DNA of 52,572 nucleotides from Klenkia terrae (GTDB lineage: Bacteria; Actinomycetota; Actinomycetes; Mycobacteriales; Geodermatophilaceae): assembly GCF_900491935.1 (NCBI RefSeq), contig NZ_UEXK01000004.1, positions 2,260,203 through 2,312,774 on the forward strand, in the 5' to 3' direction. A program made the position numbers and the translations under genes. Every line of letters begins with the position of its first letter. Position 1 is the first letter of the stretch. The notes beneath the pieces are model-generated. The model had not been told where the DNA came from. It saw nothing but the letters and a program-made list of their open reading frames with translations, and searched no databases. This document shows, piece after piece, positions 5,273 to 43,075 of the stretch.

Positions 5273-5968
5273 TCAGGCGGGGGGCACCTCGCCGCGCAGC
5301 AGGCCCTCCGCCGCGGTCTCCAGGTCCTGGTCCAGCCGGAAGGCCCGGGCCCGGAGCACGGCCAGCGCCGCGGCGTTGCTGATGCCGTCCTGCCCGCTGA
5401 GCTGGGCGACGGCCAGCCACACCCGCTGCCGGGCCAGCACCGCCGGGCGGTGGAACCAGTCGGGCAGACCCAGCAGCCGGTGCTGCCCGCCCGACATGTC
5501 CGCGGCCAGCGCGTCGCCCACCAGCAGGGCCACCTCGGCGACGTCCTCGTCGGGCACGGCGGGGGCCTCGGCGTCGGTGCAGAACAGGTCCAGCGTGGTG
5601 ACGGCGGCCAGCGGCCCGCCGACCGGCACGGCGAGCACGCTGCGGTAGGCGGTGCGCGCCGCGAGCTGCGAGGCGTAGACCGGCCAGCGCTGCGCCAGCT
5701 CCGGTGCCGACACCGCCAGCGGACGCCGTCGCCGCTGCGCCTCCAGGCACGGGCCGTCACCGAGCGCGAACTGCATCTGCTCGGCGGCCACGGCCTGCGC
5801 GTCGCTGGCGCCCAGCGGCAACCGGCGGTCGGGGTCGAAGGCGTGGCTGAGCCCGGCGCCGTCCACCGGCAGCGCCGCGACGCAGGCCCGGGCCAGCCGC
5901 TCGGGCAGCAGCTCCGGGTCGCCGGGCCCGCGGTCCAGCTCGGCGACGAAGGCGGCGCCGGGGCTCAC
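5273..5968 (-). CDS. GAF and ANTAR domain-containing regulator
   Basis: 231 aa from GTG 5968. The GAF domain covers about residues 15-160 (DGAGLSHAFDPDRRLPLGASDAQAVAAEQMQFALGDGPCLEAQ; YRSVLAVPVGGPLAAVTTLDLF). The C-terminal 55 residues (RQRVWLAVAQLSG...AALAVLRARAFRLDQDLETAAEGLL) have the three-helix spacing of an ANTAR RNA-binding antiterminator domain, though weaker than the consensus. Such proteins sense a small molecule or redox state and prevent transcription termination. The start GTG overlaps the TetR stop (GTGA, 5965-5968), so the two are translationally coupled. Confidence 0.82.
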   Translation of the reverse strand: MSPGAAFVAELDRGPGDPELLPERLARACVAALPVDGAGLSHAFDPDRRLPLGASDAQAVAAEQMQFALGDGPCLEAQRRRRPLAVSAPELAQRWPVYASQLAARTAYRSVLAVPVGGPLAAVTTLDLFCTDAEAPAVPDEDVAEVALLVGDALAADMSGGQHRLLGLPDWFHRPAVLARQRVWLAVAQLSGQDGISNAAALAVLRARAFRLDQDLETAAEGLLRGEVPPA

Positions 5969-6600
5969 CGGGCCGGCGCGGGGTGCGGGGCGGGCTGCGC
6001 GTGCCGGGCGACGGCGAACACGTGGGCCAGGCGGACGGGCAGGACCTCGGCGAGCTGGTCCAGGCACAGCGGCGGCACGGCGCCGGCGATCAGGTGCTGG
6101 CGGTAGGTGTGCGCGTGCACCCGGGTGGTGGCCAGCAGGACGGCGGCGCCCAGCCGGGCGTCGGCGTCGGGCAGGTGGGCGGCGATGACCTCGGCCAGCT
6201 CGCCCTCGACCTGGTTGTGCAGGCTGCGCTCGTGCCGGTGCAGGGACGGGGTGGCCTCGATCTGGGTGGCCATCGCCAGGTTGCCGGGGTCGTCCAGGGA
6301 GCGCATGTAGCCGATCGACAGCTCGGTGAGGTGGGCGACCAGCGTCTGGTCCCACGACTCCTCACCCGCCTCCGCCGGCCGGGTGAGGGCGTCGGCGAAG
6401 GGCACCCGGTCCAGGAAGAACAGCGCTTCCTTGCTGGCCGCGTGGTTGAACAGGGTCTGCACGGCGACGTCGGCGGCCTCGGCGATCTGCTGCACCGTCG
6501 TGCGGTCGAAGCCCTGGGTCAGGAAGAGGTGACGGGCCGCGAGGACGATCTGCTGCCTGGTCCTGTCCCGCTTGCGGTCCCGCCAGGAGGTGTCGGTCAG
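5965..6600 (-). CDS. TetR-family transcriptional regulator
   Basis: About 211 aa. The N-terminal helix-turn-helix is clear: RQQIVLAARHLFLTQGFDRTTVQQIAEAADVAVQTLFNHAASKEALFF. The C-terminal ligand domain is unassigned. The start is uncertain. A strong GGAGGAGG Shine-Dalgarno lies 7 nt before a CTG at 6600, and no ATG/GTG/TTG exists near it. The next in-frame canonical start is ATG 6687, which would add 29 poorly conserved-looking residues and lacks a good ribosome site. CTG 6600 is preferred here. It probably controls its own operon (GAF-ANTAR, NUDIX) and perhaps the divergent NYN/PLD pair, but no clear palindromic operator was found in 6601-6813. Confidence 0.82.
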   Translation of the reverse strand: MTDTSWRDRKRDRTRQQIVLAARHLFLTQGFDRTTVQQIAEAADVAVQTLFNHAASKEALFFLDRVPFADALTRPAEAGEESWDQTLVAHLTELSIGYMRSLDDPGNLAMATQIEATPSLHRHERSLHNQVEGELAEVIAAHLPDADARLGAAVLLATTRVHAHTYRQHLIAGAVPPLCLDQLAEVLPVRLAHVFAVARHAQPAPHPAPAR

Positions 6601-6813
6601 GACCCCTCCTCCGTCGAAGCTGTGCGGACTGCGTGCATGAACTGTAAACCGCCGTCGGGTGTGCGCCCGGGAGACGGCTGCCACCATGACCGGGTGGACC
6701 CCACCGGCCGGCGCCGCTCCCGGCGCGCCACCTCCCCGGCCGGGCCCCCCTCCCGGGTGGCGCCGCCGGCCACCTCGGCGACGTCCGGGGGTGCGACCCG
6801 GCACACTGGCCCG

Positions 6814-7533
6814 GTGACCGCGACGGAGATCGAGAGCCCCGACCTCGGGTCCGGCCGGACCGCCGAGCCCACCGCCGAGCCCGAGCGGCAGGTCGTCCGC
6901 GACCGGCCCGCCCTGGACCTGCTGGTGTGGGACGCCCCGAACATCGACATGACCCTCGCGACGGTCATCGGGGCCCGCCCGACCGCGGCCTCGCGGCCGC
7001 GCTTCGACGCGATCGCCTCCTGGTTCGTGGGCGGTGCGGGAGAGGCCGGGCAGGGCGGTGCCGACGAGGTCGAGGCCTGCGTCTTCGCCAACGTGCCCCC
7101 GCAGCACGTGACCACGCTGCGCGGCTGGGTCGAGGCCCTGCGCAGCTTCGGGTACTCGGTCTTCGCCCGGCCCAAGAGCCGCCCCGACGACGACATCGAC
7201 CAGTCGATGCTCGACCACATCGAGGTCCGCGCGCACAGCCACTCGCTGCGCCGCCTGGTCGTCTTCTCCGGCGACGGCCGCAACTTCCGCGAGCCGCTGG
7301 AGGAGCTGGCGCGCACCGGCACCGACGTCGTGGTGGTCGCGTTCAGCGAGGTCGCCGGCTACGCCAGCAGCTCCGAGTTGCTGCACTTCGTCGACATCGA
7401 GGACGTGCCCGGGGCCTTCGCCGCCCCGCTGGACCGGGTCCGGCTGGACTCGCTGCCGGTCGAGGGTGCCTGGCTGCGCCCGACCAAGAGCCTGCGCGAC
7501 GCCGCGGCCGCCTACGGCCGGAAGACCGCGTGA
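6814..7533 (+). CDS. NYN domain (PIN-like, LabA/DUF88-type) protein
   Basis: 239 aa from GTG 6814. After a 35-residue charged leader comes LDLLVWDAPNIDMTLATVIG, the Asp/Asn motif of NYN nucleases. It is followed by the acidic segment DDDIDQSMLDHIEVRAH and LVVFSGDGRNFREPLEELARTGTDVVVVAF, where SGDGRNF supplies the last conserved Asp. NYN domains share the PIN nuclease fold and are predicted metal-dependent RNases; activity here is inferred. The last four bases are shared with the start of the PLD gene (GTGA), so the two products are translationally coupled and probably work together. A CACACT hexamer lies 6 nt before the start. Confidence 0.82.
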   Translation: MTATEIESPDLGSGRTAEPTAEPERQVVRDRPALDLLVWDAPNIDMTLATVIGARPTAASRPRFDAIASWFVGGAGEAGQGGADEVEACVFANVPPQHVTTLRGWVEALRSFGYSVFARPKSRPDDDIDQSMLDHIEVRAHSHSLRRLVVFSGDGRNFREPLEELARTGTDVVVVAFSEVAGYASSSELLHFVDIEDVPGAFAAPLDRVRLDSLPVEGAWLRPTKSLRDAAAAYGRKTA

Positions 7534-31653: not shown

Positions 31654-32208
31654 TCACCCCCCGGGGCGTCCGGCCAGCTCCGCGACCCGGGTGACCGTCG
31701 TCCAGTTGCGACCGGTGCCCGGCGCGCCGAGCAGGCGGTCCCACCGCCAGCTGCCGACCGGGGTGTCCAGGACGCCGTCGGGGAGCCACAGGTGCAGGTC
31801 GCGTCCCCGCAGCGCCCAGGCGCCCTCCCCGGGCCCGGCCACCGGGACCGCGGACACCGCGGCCGGGTCGGGGACGGCGGGCAGGAACGTGACCAGGTAG
31901 CGGGCCGGGTCCAGGTCGGCGCCGTCGGGCAGCGCGACCGGGCCGCTGTCCACGACGGCGGCCACCTCGGCGGCGGACCGGACGGCGACCGCCACGTCGT
32001 GCCCGAAGTCGGCCTGGATGCAGGCGTGCACGTCGGCGGCCAGCCCGTCCTCGACGAGGTCGGTGGTCAGCACGACGTTGCCGCTCTGCAGGTGCGTGGC
32101 GACGTCGGTGTACCCGCGGGCGGTGAGCGCCTCCCGCAGCGGGCCCATGCCGATCCGCTTGGCCCGGCCGACGTTGATGCCGCGGAGCAGGACGACGGAT
32201 CGGGCCAC
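31654..32208 (-). CDS. DUF1697 domain protein
   Basis: 184 aa from GTG 32208. The N-terminal VVLLRGINVGRAKRIGMGPLREALTARGYTDVATHLQSGNVVL is the diagnostic DUF1697 motif, followed by VRSAAEVAAVV and a C-terminal GAPGTGRNWTTVTRVAEL. The function of this family is unknown. TACCTT lies 7 nt upstream of the start. It is divergent from the reverse transcriptase gene; the 220 bp between the two starts has no other canonical gene. Confidence 0.86.
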   Translation of the reverse strand: MARSVVLLRGINVGRAKRIGMGPLREALTARGYTDVATHLQSGNVVLTTDLVEDGLAADVHACIQADFGHDVAVAVRSAAEVAAVVDSGPVALPDGADLDPARYLVTFLPAVPDPAAVSAVPVAGPGEGAWALRGRDLHLWLPDGVLDTPVGSWRWDRLLGAPGTGRNWTTVTRVAELAGRPGG

Positions 32209-32215
32209 GCCGCAG

Positions 32216-32221
32216 AAGGTA
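32216..32221 (-). promoter_or_regulatory. -10 box of the DUF1697 gene
   Basis: TACCTT on the reverse strand, 7 nt before GTG 32208; leaderless pattern. Confidence 0.5.
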
Positions 32222-32428
32222 GAGCCCGGCGGACGGGTCTGGGAAGGTGGCCGGCATGCGGTGGCGCGGGCTCGAGGACGCCGTGCCGCAGGTCGGGCCG
32301 GCAGCTCCGGGGATGCCCCGGGGACCGCACGCAGCCTCCACCACCACGCCTCCGGCGCGACGCAGCGCTCCGCGCAGCTCAGCGTCGGGACGACGGGACC
32401 GGTCGACCCGCGCCACCGCACGATCCAC
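32222..32428 (+). other. Candidate msr-msd (retron ncRNA) region upstream of the RT
   Basis: About 207 bp just ahead of the reverse transcriptase, where retrons place their structured RNA. Stems visible on the + strand are GAGCCCG (32222-32228) with CGGGCTC (32267-32273); CCGGGG (32307-32312) with CCCCGG (32316-32321); CGACGC with GCGTCG flanking 32370-32390; and possible long-range CGGGTC (32234-32239) with GACCCG (32405-32410). None is long enough to prove an msd stem. A 61-codon ORF (32247-32432) has odd composition and is probably not coding. Confidence 0.3.
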
Positions 32429-33802
32429 GTGAAACCACCCGGCACCCGCACCGCCCGCGCGCTGGCCGCCGCGTTCCTGGGCTCCCCGGAGTGGTCCGCG
32501 CCGGCGCTGGTCGAGCAGGGCCGGGTGGTGCTGGACCCGGCGCCGGACTGGCTGCCCGCCGTGGCGGCCGCCGCGGTCGCGGCCCACCGGGAGCCGCCGC
32601 GGGACGCTCCGCGGGAGCTGGCCGGGTTCCTCCTCGGCGTGCGGGAGGAGTTGCTCGACGCCCGGCCCCGGCTCGACGACGACGGCGAGCCGCTGCCCCG
32701 TCCCGCCGAGCCCCGGGTGCGGGCCTGGTTGCCGACCACCCCCCGGATGGGTCGCGCCCGCTGGCCGGTGCACCCGCTGCACGACCTGGCCGACGTCGCC
32801 GAGATGCTGGGCACCGACCTCGACCACCTCTCCTGGTACGCCGACCCGCAGGGTCGCCAGCGCACCGAGCCGGCCGGTCACCTGCAGCTCTACCGCCGCC
32901 GGTGGCTGCCCCGCCCGGGCCGGGTGCCCCGCCTGCTGGAGGTGCCGACCCCGCGGCTGCGCGCGGTGCAGCGGGTGCTGCTGGACCGGGTGCTCGCCCC
33001 GATCCCGCCGCACCCCGCCGCGCACGGGTTCGTCGCCGGCCGCTCCGCCCTGACCGGGGCGCGGCAGCACGTGGGTGCCGAGGAGCTGCTCACCCTGGAC
33101 CTGGCGGCGTTCTTCGCCACGGTCCGCGCCGGCCGGGTGTGGGCGACGCTGCGCTCGGCCGGCTACCCCGAGCCGGTGGCCTCCCTGCTGACCGGGCTGT
33201 GCACCACCTCGGCCACCCGGGACGACCTGGCGACCATGCCGCCGGGCGGCAGCGAGGGCGCCCGTGCCCACGTCCGGGCCGCGCTGGCCACCCCGCACCT
33301 GCCGCAGGGGGCGCCGACGTCCCCGCAGCTGGCCAACCTGGCCGCCCACCGGCTGGACCGGCGGCTGGCCGGGCTGGCCGCGGCGGCGGGCGCGGTCTAC
33401 ACCCGCTACGCCGACGACCTGACCTTCTCCGGCCGGCGCGGCACCGCCGCGCTGCGGCACCGGGTGGCGGTCGTCGTCGCCGACGAGGGGTTCGCGCTGC
33501 AGCCGGCCAAGACCCGGGTGCGCGGGCGCGGCGCCCGCCAGGCGGTCACCGGCGTCGTGGTCAACGAGCGCCCCTCGCTGCCCCGCGCCGAGCTCGACGC
33601 GCTCCGGGCCCGGCTGACCAACGCCGTCCGCCGCGGCCCGTCGGCGGCCGACCTCGCGGCGGTGGACGGCGACCGGCAGGCCCTGCGCCGGGAGCTGGCC
33701 GGCCGGGGGGCCTGGGTGACCCAGGTGCACCCCGTCCGCGGGGAGCGCCTGGCCGCCCTGCTGGCCGCCGTCGACTTCGCGGAGCCCGACACGGACCTGT
33801 GA
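32429..33802 (+). CDS. Retron-type reverse transcriptase
   Basis: 457 aa from GTG 32429. An N-terminal extension of about 140 residues includes LADVAEMLGTDLDHLSWYAD. Then come RT motifs: VPTPRLRAVQRVLLDRVLAPIPPHPAAHGFVAGRS, LTGARQH (208-214, the NAxxH position of retron RTs, with Gly for Asn), motif A LDLAAFFATV (Asp224), LPQGAPTSPQLANL (291-304), catalytic YTRYADDLTFSG (YADD at 327-330), and QAVTGVVVN (VTG at 373-375, retron region Y). The order and the AAHGFxxGRSxLTxAxxHVGA block resemble myxobacterial retron RTs such as that of Mx162. Catalytic residues are intact. No known retron effector lies in the same operon. Confidence 0.88.
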   Translation: MKPPGTRTARALAAAFLGSPEWSAPALVEQGRVVLDPAPDWLPAVAAAAVAAHREPPRDAPRELAGFLLGVREELLDARPRLDDDGEPLPRPAEPRVRAWLPTTPRMGRARWPVHPLHDLADVAEMLGTDLDHLSWYADPQGRQRTEPAGHLQLYRRRWLPRPGRVPRLLEVPTPRLRAVQRVLLDRVLAPIPPHPAAHGFVAGRSALTGARQHVGAEELLTLDLAAFFATVRAGRVWATLRSAGYPEPVASLLTGLCTTSATRDDLATMPPGGSEGARAHVRAALATPHLPQGAPTSPQLANLAAHRLDRRLAGLAAAAGAVYTRYADDLTFSGRRGTAALRHRVAVVVADEGFALQPAKTRVRGRGARQAVTGVVVNERPSLPRAELDALRARLTNAVRRGPSAADLAAVDGDRQALRRELAGRGAWVTQVHPVRGERLAALLAAVDFAEPDTDL

Positions 33803-33840
33803 CCTGGCTGTGACGCGGACCCGTCAGTCTCGGCACCGTC

Positions 33841-33882: not shown

Positions 33883-35283
33883 ATGGCGACGACGAAGGCG
33901 ACCAAGGGCACGGGACGGCGGGACCCGGGCGACCCGGACGCGATGCCGCCGTGGGGCGTGGCGGTGCCGCTGGGCCTGCAGCACGTGCTGGCCATGTTCA
34001 CCTCGAACCTGACCCCGGCGATCCTGCTGGCCGGGGGCATCGGCGCGACCACCGGCGAGGCGGTGCTGCTGGTGCAGGCCGCGCTGCTGTGCGCGGGTCT
34101 GGCCACGCTGCTGCAGACCATCGGCATCGGCCCGGTCGGCAGCCGGTTGCCGCTGATGATGGGTTCGGGCTTCGCGTTCATCGCGGTCGCCGTCCCGCTG
34201 GCCGCCGAGCGCGGGCTGGACGCCGTGCTGGGCGGGGTGCTCGTCACCGCGCTGGTCCAGGTGGCGATCGGGCTGGGCATCCACAAGATCGCGTTCCTGT
34301 TCCCGCCGGTGGTGACCGGGACGATCATCCTGGTGATCGGCCTGGGGCTGCTGCCCAGCGGGATCAACCTGGCCGCCGGCGGGGTCGGCCGCGAGGGCTT
34401 CGGGTCCTGGACGAACTTCGGGGTCGCCGGGCTGGTGCTCGTGCTGACCGTGGTGCTCAACCAGTTCGCCCGCGGGCTGGCCAAGGCCGCGTCGGTGCTC
34501 ATCGCCGTCGTCGTGGGCTACCTGGTGGCCATCCCGGCCGGCCTGCTGGACCTGTCGGGCGTCGGTGACCGGCCGGTGCTGGCCTTCCCGTCGCCGTTCG
34601 CGTTCGGCGTCTCGTTCGAGGTGGTGGCCATCGCGTCGATGGCGATCGTCGGCGTGGTGAACATGGTCGACTCGGTGGGCACGGTGCACGCGGTCACCGA
34701 GGGCGGCGCGGGTCGGCCGGCCACCCGGCGCGAGCTGCGCGGCGGCATCCTGGCCGAGGGCGGGTCCGCCGTCCTGGGCGGGGTGTTCGGGGCGCTGCCG
34801 ACCACGATGTTCAGCCAGAACATCGGCCTGGTCGCGCTCACCAAGCAGATGAGCCGGCACGTGGTGACCATCGGCGCCTGCGTGCTGGTCGGCCTGGCGC
34901 TGCTGCCCCAGCTGGCCGCGGTGCTCGCCGCCGTCCCGCCGGCGGTGCTCGGCGGCGGTGTGCTGGTGCTGTTCGGGATGGTCTGCGCGATCGGCATCGA
35001 GCTGCTGAGCAAGGACGGCCTGGACACCCGCGCGCTGCTCATCGTGGCCATGTCGGTCGCCCTGGGCCGGGGCATCGCGGCCGCCCCGGACGCGATCGCC
35101 GGCATCGCGGGGGAGTGGGGTGCGCTGTTCAGCTCGGGGATCGTGGTCTCCGCGGTGGTGGCCATCGTGCTCAACCTGGTGCTGCCCGGGCGCCCGGTGC
35201 CCGCGCCCGAGGTGCCGTCCCCGGCCGAGCCCTTCGTCGAGGCGGCCGTCGAGGAGCGCGCCGAGGAGCGCACCGAGCGCTGA
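33883..35283 (+). CDS. NCS2-family nucleobase (xanthine/uracil) permease
   Basis: 466 aa with 12-14 hydrophobic segments. The NCS2 signature QNIGLVALTKQMSRH lies about residue 308, and GSGFAFIAVAV and FPPVVTGTIILVIGLGLLPSGI are also family-typical. Proton-coupled uptake of purine or pyrimidine bases is known for the family. The SRH ending of the signature is more usual in xanthine/urate transporters than in uracil transporters. The C-terminal tail is acidic (EEAxEERAEERTER). ATG 33883 has GGGGGAGC upstream at proper spacing. The DNA is typical of the region. Confidence 0.9.
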   Translation: MATTKATKGTGRRDPGDPDAMPPWGVAVPLGLQHVLAMFTSNLTPAILLAGGIGATTGEAVLLVQAALLCAGLATLLQTIGIGPVGSRLPLMMGSGFAFIAVAVPLAAERGLDAVLGGVLVTALVQVAIGLGIHKIAFLFPPVVTGTIILVIGLGLLPSGINLAAGGVGREGFGSWTNFGVAGLVLVLTVVLNQFARGLAKAASVLIAVVVGYLVAIPAGLLDLSGVGDRPVLAFPSPFAFGVSFEVVAIASMAIVGVVNMVDSVGTVHAVTEGGAGRPATRRELRGGILAEGGSAVLGGVFGALPTTMFSQNIGLVALTKQMSRHVVTIGACVLVGLALLPQLAAVLAAVPPAVLGGGVLVLFGMVCAIGIELLSKDGLDTRALLIVAMSVALGRGIAAAPDAIAGIAGEWGALFSSGIVVSAVVAIVLNLVLPGRPVPAPEVPSPAEPFVEAAVEERAEERTER

Positions 35284-42338: not shown

Positions 42339-42956
42339 CTAGACGCGGCTGCGCCCGGAGGCGAAGGAGCTCAGCGCGCCGGTGCGGGCCAGGGCCTTCA
42401 CCAGCAGCAGCCCGACCACACCGGCCAGCAGCACGCTGCTGATCACGGTGAAGACGGTGTAGGGCACCTTGTAGGCCCAGAAGCCCAGGTCGGCGTAGTA
42501 GACGGTGTTGTCCAGGATCGACGTGGACAGCCCGGCGGTGACCCCGGCGAGCACGGCGGTGCCCCAGCCGAAGGACCGGTACCGGGTCAGCAGGAAGCCG
42601 ATCTCGCCGCCCAGGCCCTGGATCAAGCCGTAGACGATGATGATGCCGCCGTAGGGCGAGCCCAGCAGCAGGCTGACCGCGGCGGCGAGCCCGGAGGCGA
42701 AGATCGCGGCGCCGGGCTTGCGGACCAGCAGGCCGGCGACCACCCCGGGCATCAGGTAGACGCCGTTGAGCACCGCGGCCAGCGGCGGGAAGAAGTCCAG
42801 CGGCGCGGCCAGCACGCCGAAGACCAGGTTCCAGGCCCAGAAGACGACGCCGAACGCGACGCCCAGGACGGCGGTCGTGACGATGTCGACGGTGCGCCAG
42901 GAACGGCGCGGCGCCTGCCCGGTGGCAGCGGTCGGACGGGTGACCTCAGCGGTCAT
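42339..42956 (-). CDS. ykoE: ECF transporter substrate-binding (S) component, YkoE family
   Basis: 205 aa from ATG 42956. Five to six transmembrane segments with the YkoE pattern: VDIVTTAVLGVAFGVVFWAWNLVFG, VYLMPGVVAGLLVRKPGAAIFASGLAAAVSLLLGSPYG, IQGLGGEIGFLLTRYR, ILDNTVYYADLGFW. It binds the substrate of the ECF importer. The TPP riboswitch ends 13 bp before the start, and the GGAGAG ribosome site lies between, so TPP binding probably blocks translation initiation of the whole operon. Confidence 0.9.
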   Translation of the reverse strand: MTAEVTRPTAATGQAPRRSWRTVDIVTTAVLGVAFGVVFWAWNLVFGVLAAPLDFFPPLAAVLNGVYLMPGVVAGLLVRKPGAAIFASGLAAAVSLLLGSPYGGIIIVYGLIQGLGGEIGFLLTRYRSFGWGTAVLAGVTAGLSTSILDNTVYYADLGFWAYKVPYTVFTVISSVLLAGVVGLLLVKALARTGALSSFASGRSRV

Positions 42957-42969
42957 GGTGCTCTCTCCA

Positions 42970-43053
42970 GACTCCCTACGCCGGCATGACCCGGTTCAGG
43001 TTCGAGGGTCTGCGGTTGCCCGCACTCTCAGCGCCTCGTGGCGCTCCCCTGTC
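42970..43053 (-). promoter_or_regulatory. TPP (thi-box) riboswitch
   Basis: On the reverse strand the aptamer shows CAGGGGAGCG, GCGCTGAGAGTGCGG, CAGACCCTCGAACCTGA, and ATGCCGGCGTAGGGAGT in order, with the CTGAGA, GAACCTGA and CGTAGGGA landmarks of thiamine pyrophosphate riboswitches. It directly precedes ykoE and its ribosome site. Confidence 0.93.
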
Positions 43054-43075
43054 GGTGTGTTCTGTTGTGCCGGGG

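Follow-up and report, generated by a model that had tools for sequence, protein, structure and literature searches.

The actinobacterium Klenkia terrae carries, in a 52,572-nucleotide stretch of contig NZ_UEXK01000004.1 (the window, hereafter), what is very probably a solitary retron (rough probability 0.87). The proposed element is a single cassette in which a 164-nt msr–msd template RNA at 32257-32420 of the forward strand is followed, after 8 bases, by a reverse transcriptase (RT) gene at 32429-33802 (+). Judged from the sequence, the RT and its RNA qualify as a retron by every feature testable here. They belong to a solitary, untyped lineage, placed by PADLOC under its RT_other and RT_outgroup models, with RNA-bearing members in six phyla. 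The initial annotation of this locus had offered two readings, namely a simple RT-plus-noncoding-RNA retron and a domesticated RT with a new role. The first is borne out by a conserved msr–msd, by naturally empty sites that lack only the RNA and the RT, and by the absence of a recurrent partner among the nearest genes; the second may apply as an alternative as to function.

The template RNA emerged from comparison of the DNA upstream of the RT. Specifically, Klenkia genomes share long invariant blocks there, and an iterated nhmmer search with six upstream seeds over loci L028-L137 reached 92 matches, almost every one lying immediately 5' of an RT. Aligned without regard to structure, 24 sequences selected from among these matches yielded a single consensus fold of 36 pairs, 22 of them with compensatory double changes. 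Covariance model R1 scores the window RNA, one of its own training sequences, at 125.6 bits (E 3e-18), and this is its sole match in the 52.6-kb window. When the model was run across homologs, as the initial annotation had proposed, it gave a single match in each of 88 sources out of 97 (E ≤0.01), 23 of the 88 being training sequences. The nine sources with no RNA match are the empty sites L047-L049, a locus with a different RT (L045), and loci L088, L103, L117, L121, and L123, which are taken up below. L045 (G005:C12:17985-18635) is a second, different RT in a Klenkia-genus genome. In the alignment of all 88 rows, double-sided changes occur in 33 of the 36 pairs, 95.8% of cells pair, and covariation stands at 0.596 versus 0.166 in shuffles and 0.067-0.085 with slid partners. 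From a second set of 48 sources, the model recovered all six Myxococcus members of the family (L142-L147), all ten loci of the class with a family RT (L182, L184-L192), L098, L134-L137, and, weakly, L133 (E 0.0005). In that set, 24 other Myxococcus RT loci (L148-L171), L193, and L194 gave no match at E up to 1; three more matches (E 0.09-0.64) lay on the opposite strand of true matches. Rfam placed no family near the RT in the window, and relaxing E to 10 produced one chance match only. The statement in the initial annotation that no recognized msr–msd lies upstream has therefore to be revised: 32257-32420 is a conserved msr–msd-like RNA, and it represents a family that Rfam lacks. Thermodynamic stability was considered as proof of the RNA and set aside, as the folding energy (z -1.83, matched by 8 of 200 shuffles) is nothing unusual in DNA this rich in GC. 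The case for the msr–msd is thus made by covariation and conservation, not by stability.

The anatomy of the RNA is that of a retron template. The a1 arm (32257-32275, +) forms 16 pairs with the a2 arm (32403-32420, +), and 16 of 16 pairs in these helices, 1 and 2, show double changes somewhere in the family. The first base past a1, G32276 (+), in the context GAGG, is the predicted priming (branching) guanosine. The base at this position is G in 85 of 86 sequences, two of the 88 having a gap there, and right after the a1 stem is the textbook place of the branching G, as in known retrons (PMC6868368). A conserved CAGC at 32302-32305 was considered as the priming site in Klenkia, but the consensus of relatives reads CCTCTCC; because CAGC varies in many relatives, preference was given to the G that follows the a1 stem. 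Two Myxococcus sequences, L084 and L143, have CCCAGCGGG as their predicted priming context. Folding of individual sequences defines msr hairpin 1 (32280-32302, +), which forms a single hairpin of at least 5 bp in 87 of 87 sequences tested (one of the 88 was too short), with a median z of -2.43 against plain shuffles and z < -1 in 76 of the 87. Covariation defines msr hairpin 2 (32305-32323, +), an 8-bp stem with a 3-base loop (CUCCGGGG AUG CCCCGGGG) in which 99.7% of cells are paired and five of eight pairs show double changes; this is the shape reported as the RT-binding core of Ec86 (PMC6868368). The msd hairpin (32351-32389, +) has a two-part stem and an apical GCGCTCCGCGC, and its helices 4 and 5 show double changes in 12 of 12 pairs; in the window, the pair 32364/32376 is A-A. 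Next comes the msd 3' tail (32390-32402, +), where reverse transcription is predicted to start opposite G32402; the base directly before a2 is G in 88 of 88 sequences. The distance from the msd hairpin base to a2 is 51-57 nt (median 53; window 52), and that from the priming G to the msd hairpin base is 51-94 nt (median 75; window 75). Retrons are defined as having an msr with one to three hairpins of 7-10 bp and an msd that is a long hairpin (PMC6868368). At 32257-32420 we find msr hairpins within that number, a long msd hairpin, a1/a2 complementarity with a conserved priming G, and a structured RNA beside the RT with the msr 5' of the msd. Folding of five Klenkia sequences with RNAalifold had given a different inner structure, which the 24-sequence consensus supersedes. 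Across phyla, the msd hairpin keeps a fairly constant apical loop (A4 columns 153-185), reading CTCCG in 31 and CTTCG in 9 of the 88 sequences, and the tip of the multicopy single-stranded DNA (msDNA) may itself be recognized by something.

The protein likewise has the marks of a retron RT. The gene starts with GTG and encodes an uninterrupted 457-residue product that matches Pfam RVT_1 at 59.4 bits (cutoff 29.6), the sole RVT_1 match in the 4.8-Mb genome. The initial annotation had called the enzyme intact, with its catalytic residues in place, and this holds: in a 34-row alignment of the RT family, YADD (327-330), D224, H214, and G375 are invariant, and V373, T374, and A211 are almost so. 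Its position for VTG (373-375) was also right, as was its call of a variant NAxxH motif. The X-region reads GAxxH, with G replacing N, and replacement of this N is a known kind of variation among retron RTs (PMC6868368); YADD, an X-region of the form (N)AxxH, and VTG in the Y-region, which together distinguish a retron RT, are all present. The nearest named relatives are Klenkia proteins, at 82% and 78%. Among PADLOC models, RT_other scores 489.5 bits, RT_outgroup 482.7 bits, and the third 276 bits, and the same two models come first and second for ten of ten family members tested. In searches with an AlphaFold2 model of the RT (predicted local distance difference test, pLDDT, 93.5), retron RTs occupy the top 18 rows with Foldseek and the top 14 with VIA; by modeled fold, the RT core appears to fit retron RTs best. 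The initial annotation had named two outcomes that would speak against a retron, the lack of any conserved upstream RNA and a placement among group II intron or diversity-generating retroelement (DGR) RTs. The opposite was found, with the RNA conserved and retron RTs first by fold.

Klenkia genomes with and without the element define its extent. The RT lies at the same place, between the same two neighbors, in G003-G006, all of the genus, and G008 has the RNA and a piece of the RT beside a partial DUF1697 match on a short contig. In G001, G002, and G007, the DUF1697 and NCS2 genes adjoin with nothing in between. Aligned by blastn to the G001 and G007 empty sites, the window ceases to match at 32209 or 32238 and matches again from 33787 or 33788; thus, the difference is the RNA plus the RT and nothing else. 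The whole unit measures about 1.55 kb (32226-33796, +), with edges good to about 15 bp, and the last RT codons and stop fall in sequence common to the empty sites. The flanking genes, both ordinary, also present at the empty sites and outside the unit, are those that the initial annotation described: a divergent DUF1697 gene (31654-32208, -; PF08002) and, downstream, an NCS2/xanthine-uracil permease gene (33883-35283, +; PF00860).

A mechanism can be proposed from the retron paradigm. The RT would grip msr hairpin 2, and the 2'-OH of G32276 would prime DNA synthesis opposite G32402. The RT would then copy at least 52 nt back to the msd hairpin base and would remain bound to a branched msDNA of about 52-65 nt, a length derived from the distances between the msd base and a2. 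By analogy with known retrons, this scheme seems well supported as far as msDNA synthesis, and that the product would be branched is a strong inference. With lower confidence, we place the biological output either within the RT, in its N-terminal helical domain, or in some host protein whose gene lies elsewhere, because no neighboring gene is conserved. The role would be accessory and probably stress- or phage-related, which fits the patchy distribution; a role in defense or stress is, from that patchiness, a reasonable guess.

Several points weigh against the solitary-retron reading. Loci L088, L103, L117, L121, and L123 carry family-like RTs and gave no RNA match. At L064, in a metagenome-assembled genome of Solirubrobacterales, the RNA (5752-5924, -) lies upstream of the RT (6001-7296, +) and is inverted relative to it, the one inverted case noticed among the 88 matches. 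The 88-row alignment was fitted to the structure and flatters the pair counts, whereas the 24-sequence alignment was not so fitted. The stop point of reverse transcription is a guess from the hairpin base. The description of the element as effector-less covers nearest neighbors only, with flank genes called by a crude script and no search made for a trans-encoded partner. Finally, the difference between occupied and empty Klenkia sites could reflect gain or loss.

How the output might be produced is where the alternatives diverge. Retrons typically comprise an RT, an RNA, and a toxic effector (PMC12548924), and several solved retrons are, by title, complexes with an effector. It is thus quite possible, if short of even odds, that the present element is a retron of the usual three parts, its toxic effector being encoded at another place in the genome and acting in trans, with only the arrangement being unusual. 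The RT and RNA are intact and conserved and their presence is patchy, as this idea would have it. However, retron types are defined by effector and operon structure, i.e., by neighbors (PMC12548924), the cassette stands alone when set against the empty sites, and the neighborhood shows no recurrence. Specifically, clustering of 5,753 flank open reading frames (ORFs) from 98 loci revealed no family fixed beside the RT beyond genus-level synteny, and the largest clusters (16 and 8 loci) were scattered over both strands and many distances. In 38 of 84 loci, the nearest downstream gene has the orientation of the RT, and 20 of the 84 loci have such a gene within 100 bp. Downstream ORFs were scanned for 83 of the 84 loci (L116 was left out) and upstream ORFs for 54; of the 30 omitted, most overlapped the RNA or RT, a reason that at least L079 and L126 lacked. 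Of the 83 downstream neighbors, at most two share any one Pfam domain or PADLOC model; of the 54 upstream neighbors, at most three share a Pfam domain, and at most one matches a given PADLOC model. At E 1e-5, the downstream PADLOC matches were mad3, mad8, ATPase-Toprim_I-B, and AriA (two each) and PDC-M05B, mad2, C3a156, a CARF model, PDC-S07, and a second AriA model (one each), and the upstream matches were AbiEi, ZorB, mad1, and mad2 (one each). Single candidate-defense neighbors, such as PDC-M05B at 8e-65, do not recur. Two candidates were rejected. ATPase-Toprim_I-B, the sole retron-effector model among the neighbors, marks ABC-transporter genes of Arthrobacter agilis (L069, L073) on the strand opposite the RT, and the ABC ATPase encoded by the second gene past the window RT, which scores against ATPase defense models (mad3, 2.5e-26), is a plain ABC transporter in conserved Klenkia synteny. 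Neither an effector among the scanned neighbors nor a fused one, as in tripartite anti-phage retron types I-XIII, was found; judged by its neighborhood, the retron belongs to no effector-defined type.

A second alternative places the output within the RT itself. Residues 1 to about 110 (32429-32758, +) make up a helical domain outside the RT core: VIA rows mostly begin at residue 103-121 (one of the first 14 begins at 56), and this region is uncovered in nearly all fold-match rows. Folded by itself, it gives four confident helices (pLDDT 90.1); a fold search with it gave no clear match, and 28 of 29 members have no Pfam family there, the remaining member having a chance-level match. Such a region is usual, as the stretch from the RNA end to RT core residue 122 has room for a median of 126 codons (range 17-181; 86 loci, L064 set aside, leader before the start codon counted in). 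The retron could tentatively be a single-protein system, in which the N-terminal domain serves as an effector or sensor restrained by the RT–msDNA, and PADLOC does include single-gene types, XI and XII. Arguing against this possibility, only short motifs of the domain are well conserved, with nothing resembling an enzyme active site, and extended N-termini of unknown function also occur in myxobacterial RTs (PMC6868368); such an N-terminus may simply bind RNA. The further proposal, that across at least six phyla this effector-less, single-protein lineage has, in that previously unassigned domain, a new built-in effector or sensor controlled by the conserved small msDNA, strikes us as doubtful.

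The distribution of the lineage bears on a third alternative, that it is a near-neutral or selfish retroelement making msDNA only, which we consider unlikely. Its solitary, patchy cassette and the empty sites are consistent with such an element. When 296 evenly sampled genomes of the class were scanned, 11 were positive for the RNA searched for on its own and 13 for the RT profile (E 1e-20). All 11 belong to the 13, and each of the 11 has a single RNA copy, which argues against a selfish element. The RT adjoins the RNA in ten loci by tblastn and in an eleventh, G208, by coordinates, and the RT-only genomes G169 and G355 carry distant RTs. An RT match is present in 20 of 60 genomes close to the window's own, itself counted, some of these RTs being fragmentary or of another kind. 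Damaged copies, which would suit a selfish element, exist in two genomes: in G148 (G148:C4:394666-395764) the RT is in two pieces and the adjoining RNA still scores 127 bits, and in G208 (G208:C79:106383-107471) the RT has one in-frame TAG and the adjoining RNA still scores 63 bits, hinting that the protein decays first. Nonetheless, the RT's nonsynonymous rate (NG86 dN 0.12-0.20) is below the synonymous rate (dS 0.30-0.45), a crude comparison for GC-rich DNA, and the RNA covaries heavily. Nor is there a sign of spreading in plasmid records, of which 4 of 72,556 contain the RT at E 1e-30 (one looks chromosomal, and the other three are replicons of about 1 Mb), or in phage records, of which 5 of 50,697 have one at E 1e-10, distant RTs only; all of these matches are at 27-33% identity. 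As far as seen, the retron lineage is a chromosomal element. One record, L197 (NZ_LR134447.1, Tsukamurella "plasmid 5"), has polA and rpsA around a retron-like RT and therefore looks like a chromosome; upstream of that RT there is a gap of about 220 bases, and its neighbors on either side are ordinary genes.

A phylogeny, also proposed in the initial annotation, groups the RNA-bearing RTs nearly together (101 rows in a tree of 129; ten of 139 entries, short or interrupted matches, were dropped). The RNA label changes five times versus 25.7 in shuffles, two of the changes being forced by well-supported branches, with L133, whose RNA match is weak, labeled as lacking the RNA. Judging by record titles, the RNA-bearing rows represent six phyla (Actinomycetota, Myxococcota, Acidobacteriota, Planctomycetota, Pseudomonadota, and Gemmatimonadota), and several of these rows are metagenome assemblies; the cross-phylum loci are the best 80 of a longer list. 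The last alternative, that the gene is a group II intron-like, DGR, or other RT beside an unrelated RNA, is very improbable: RT folds are common to all these classes, but the best RT models of PADLOC score 490, 483, and 276 bits while the group II maturase model TIGR04416 reaches 47.4 bits of its cutoff of 300, no group II or other Rfam RNA lies nearby and no Rfam intron in the window, and the RNA has retron anatomy.

Known retrons offer partial parallels. The initial annotation had likened the RT to that of Mx162, and in part this stands: 6 of 13 Myxococcus genomes (G060, G061, G063-G066) carry a true relative with the same RNA, beside other retron-like RTs. Those other RTs, which may or may not include those of Mx162 and Mx65, form a separate clade in which 0 of 24 loci match the RNA model. 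Mx162, Mx65, Sa163, and Ne144 (Retron-Mxa1, -Mxa2, -Sau1, and -Nex2) share with the window retron an extended N-terminus, an RNA–RT cassette, and a priming G in an AG context (PMC6868368), and the 71-nt msr of Mx162 (PMC6868368) compares with 75 nt in the window, counted from the priming G to the msd hairpin base. The predicted msd, about 52-65 nt, differs from that of Mx162 (162); Mx65 (65) is nearer in length. Vertical inheritance of myxobacterial retrons is discussed in the same source (PMC6868368). Among typed retrons, the likeness is more distant. The best models, RT_other (PDLC02949) and RT_outgroup (PDLC03740), are profiles of RTs for which no type or effector is named, and the next best, of types XIII, III-A, X, XI, and XII (from 276 bits to 163, a range that also takes in Ec107-like and II-A), score more than 200 bits below the best. 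Unlike those types, the window RT has no fused protease or TIR domain and no recurrent neighbor. The structure of Ec86 (Eco1) was, by its title, solved together with its effector, and its 314-residue chain leaves the N-terminal domain of about 110 residues uncovered.

Current retron theory has three parts: an RT, an RNA, and a guarded toxin. The lineage described here is single-copy in the sampled genomes, its RT and RNA are under visible constraint, and it has no recurrent neighboring toxin. Solitary myxobacterial retrons have long been known, and the kind is therefore not new; the added interest is the breadth of the lineage, the defined RNA, and the clean empty sites. Those naturally empty sites define the minimal unit as one 1.55-kb cassette, and the role of effector-less retrons becomes directly testable by experiment. 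Moreover, msr–msd parts from high-GC hosts could be tried as DNA-making tools in actinobacteria.

Two further features of the window deserve mention. A direct repeat, CTGTGACC..GGCTGTGACG, lies across the RT stop at 33797-33815 and is kept in both occupied and empty Klenkia sites; it overlaps the last RT codons and stop and may serve the NCS2 gene as a promoter or operator. Finally, a thiamine pyrophosphate (TPP) riboswitch (RF00059, 68.3 bits) lies at 42956-43060 on the reverse strand.
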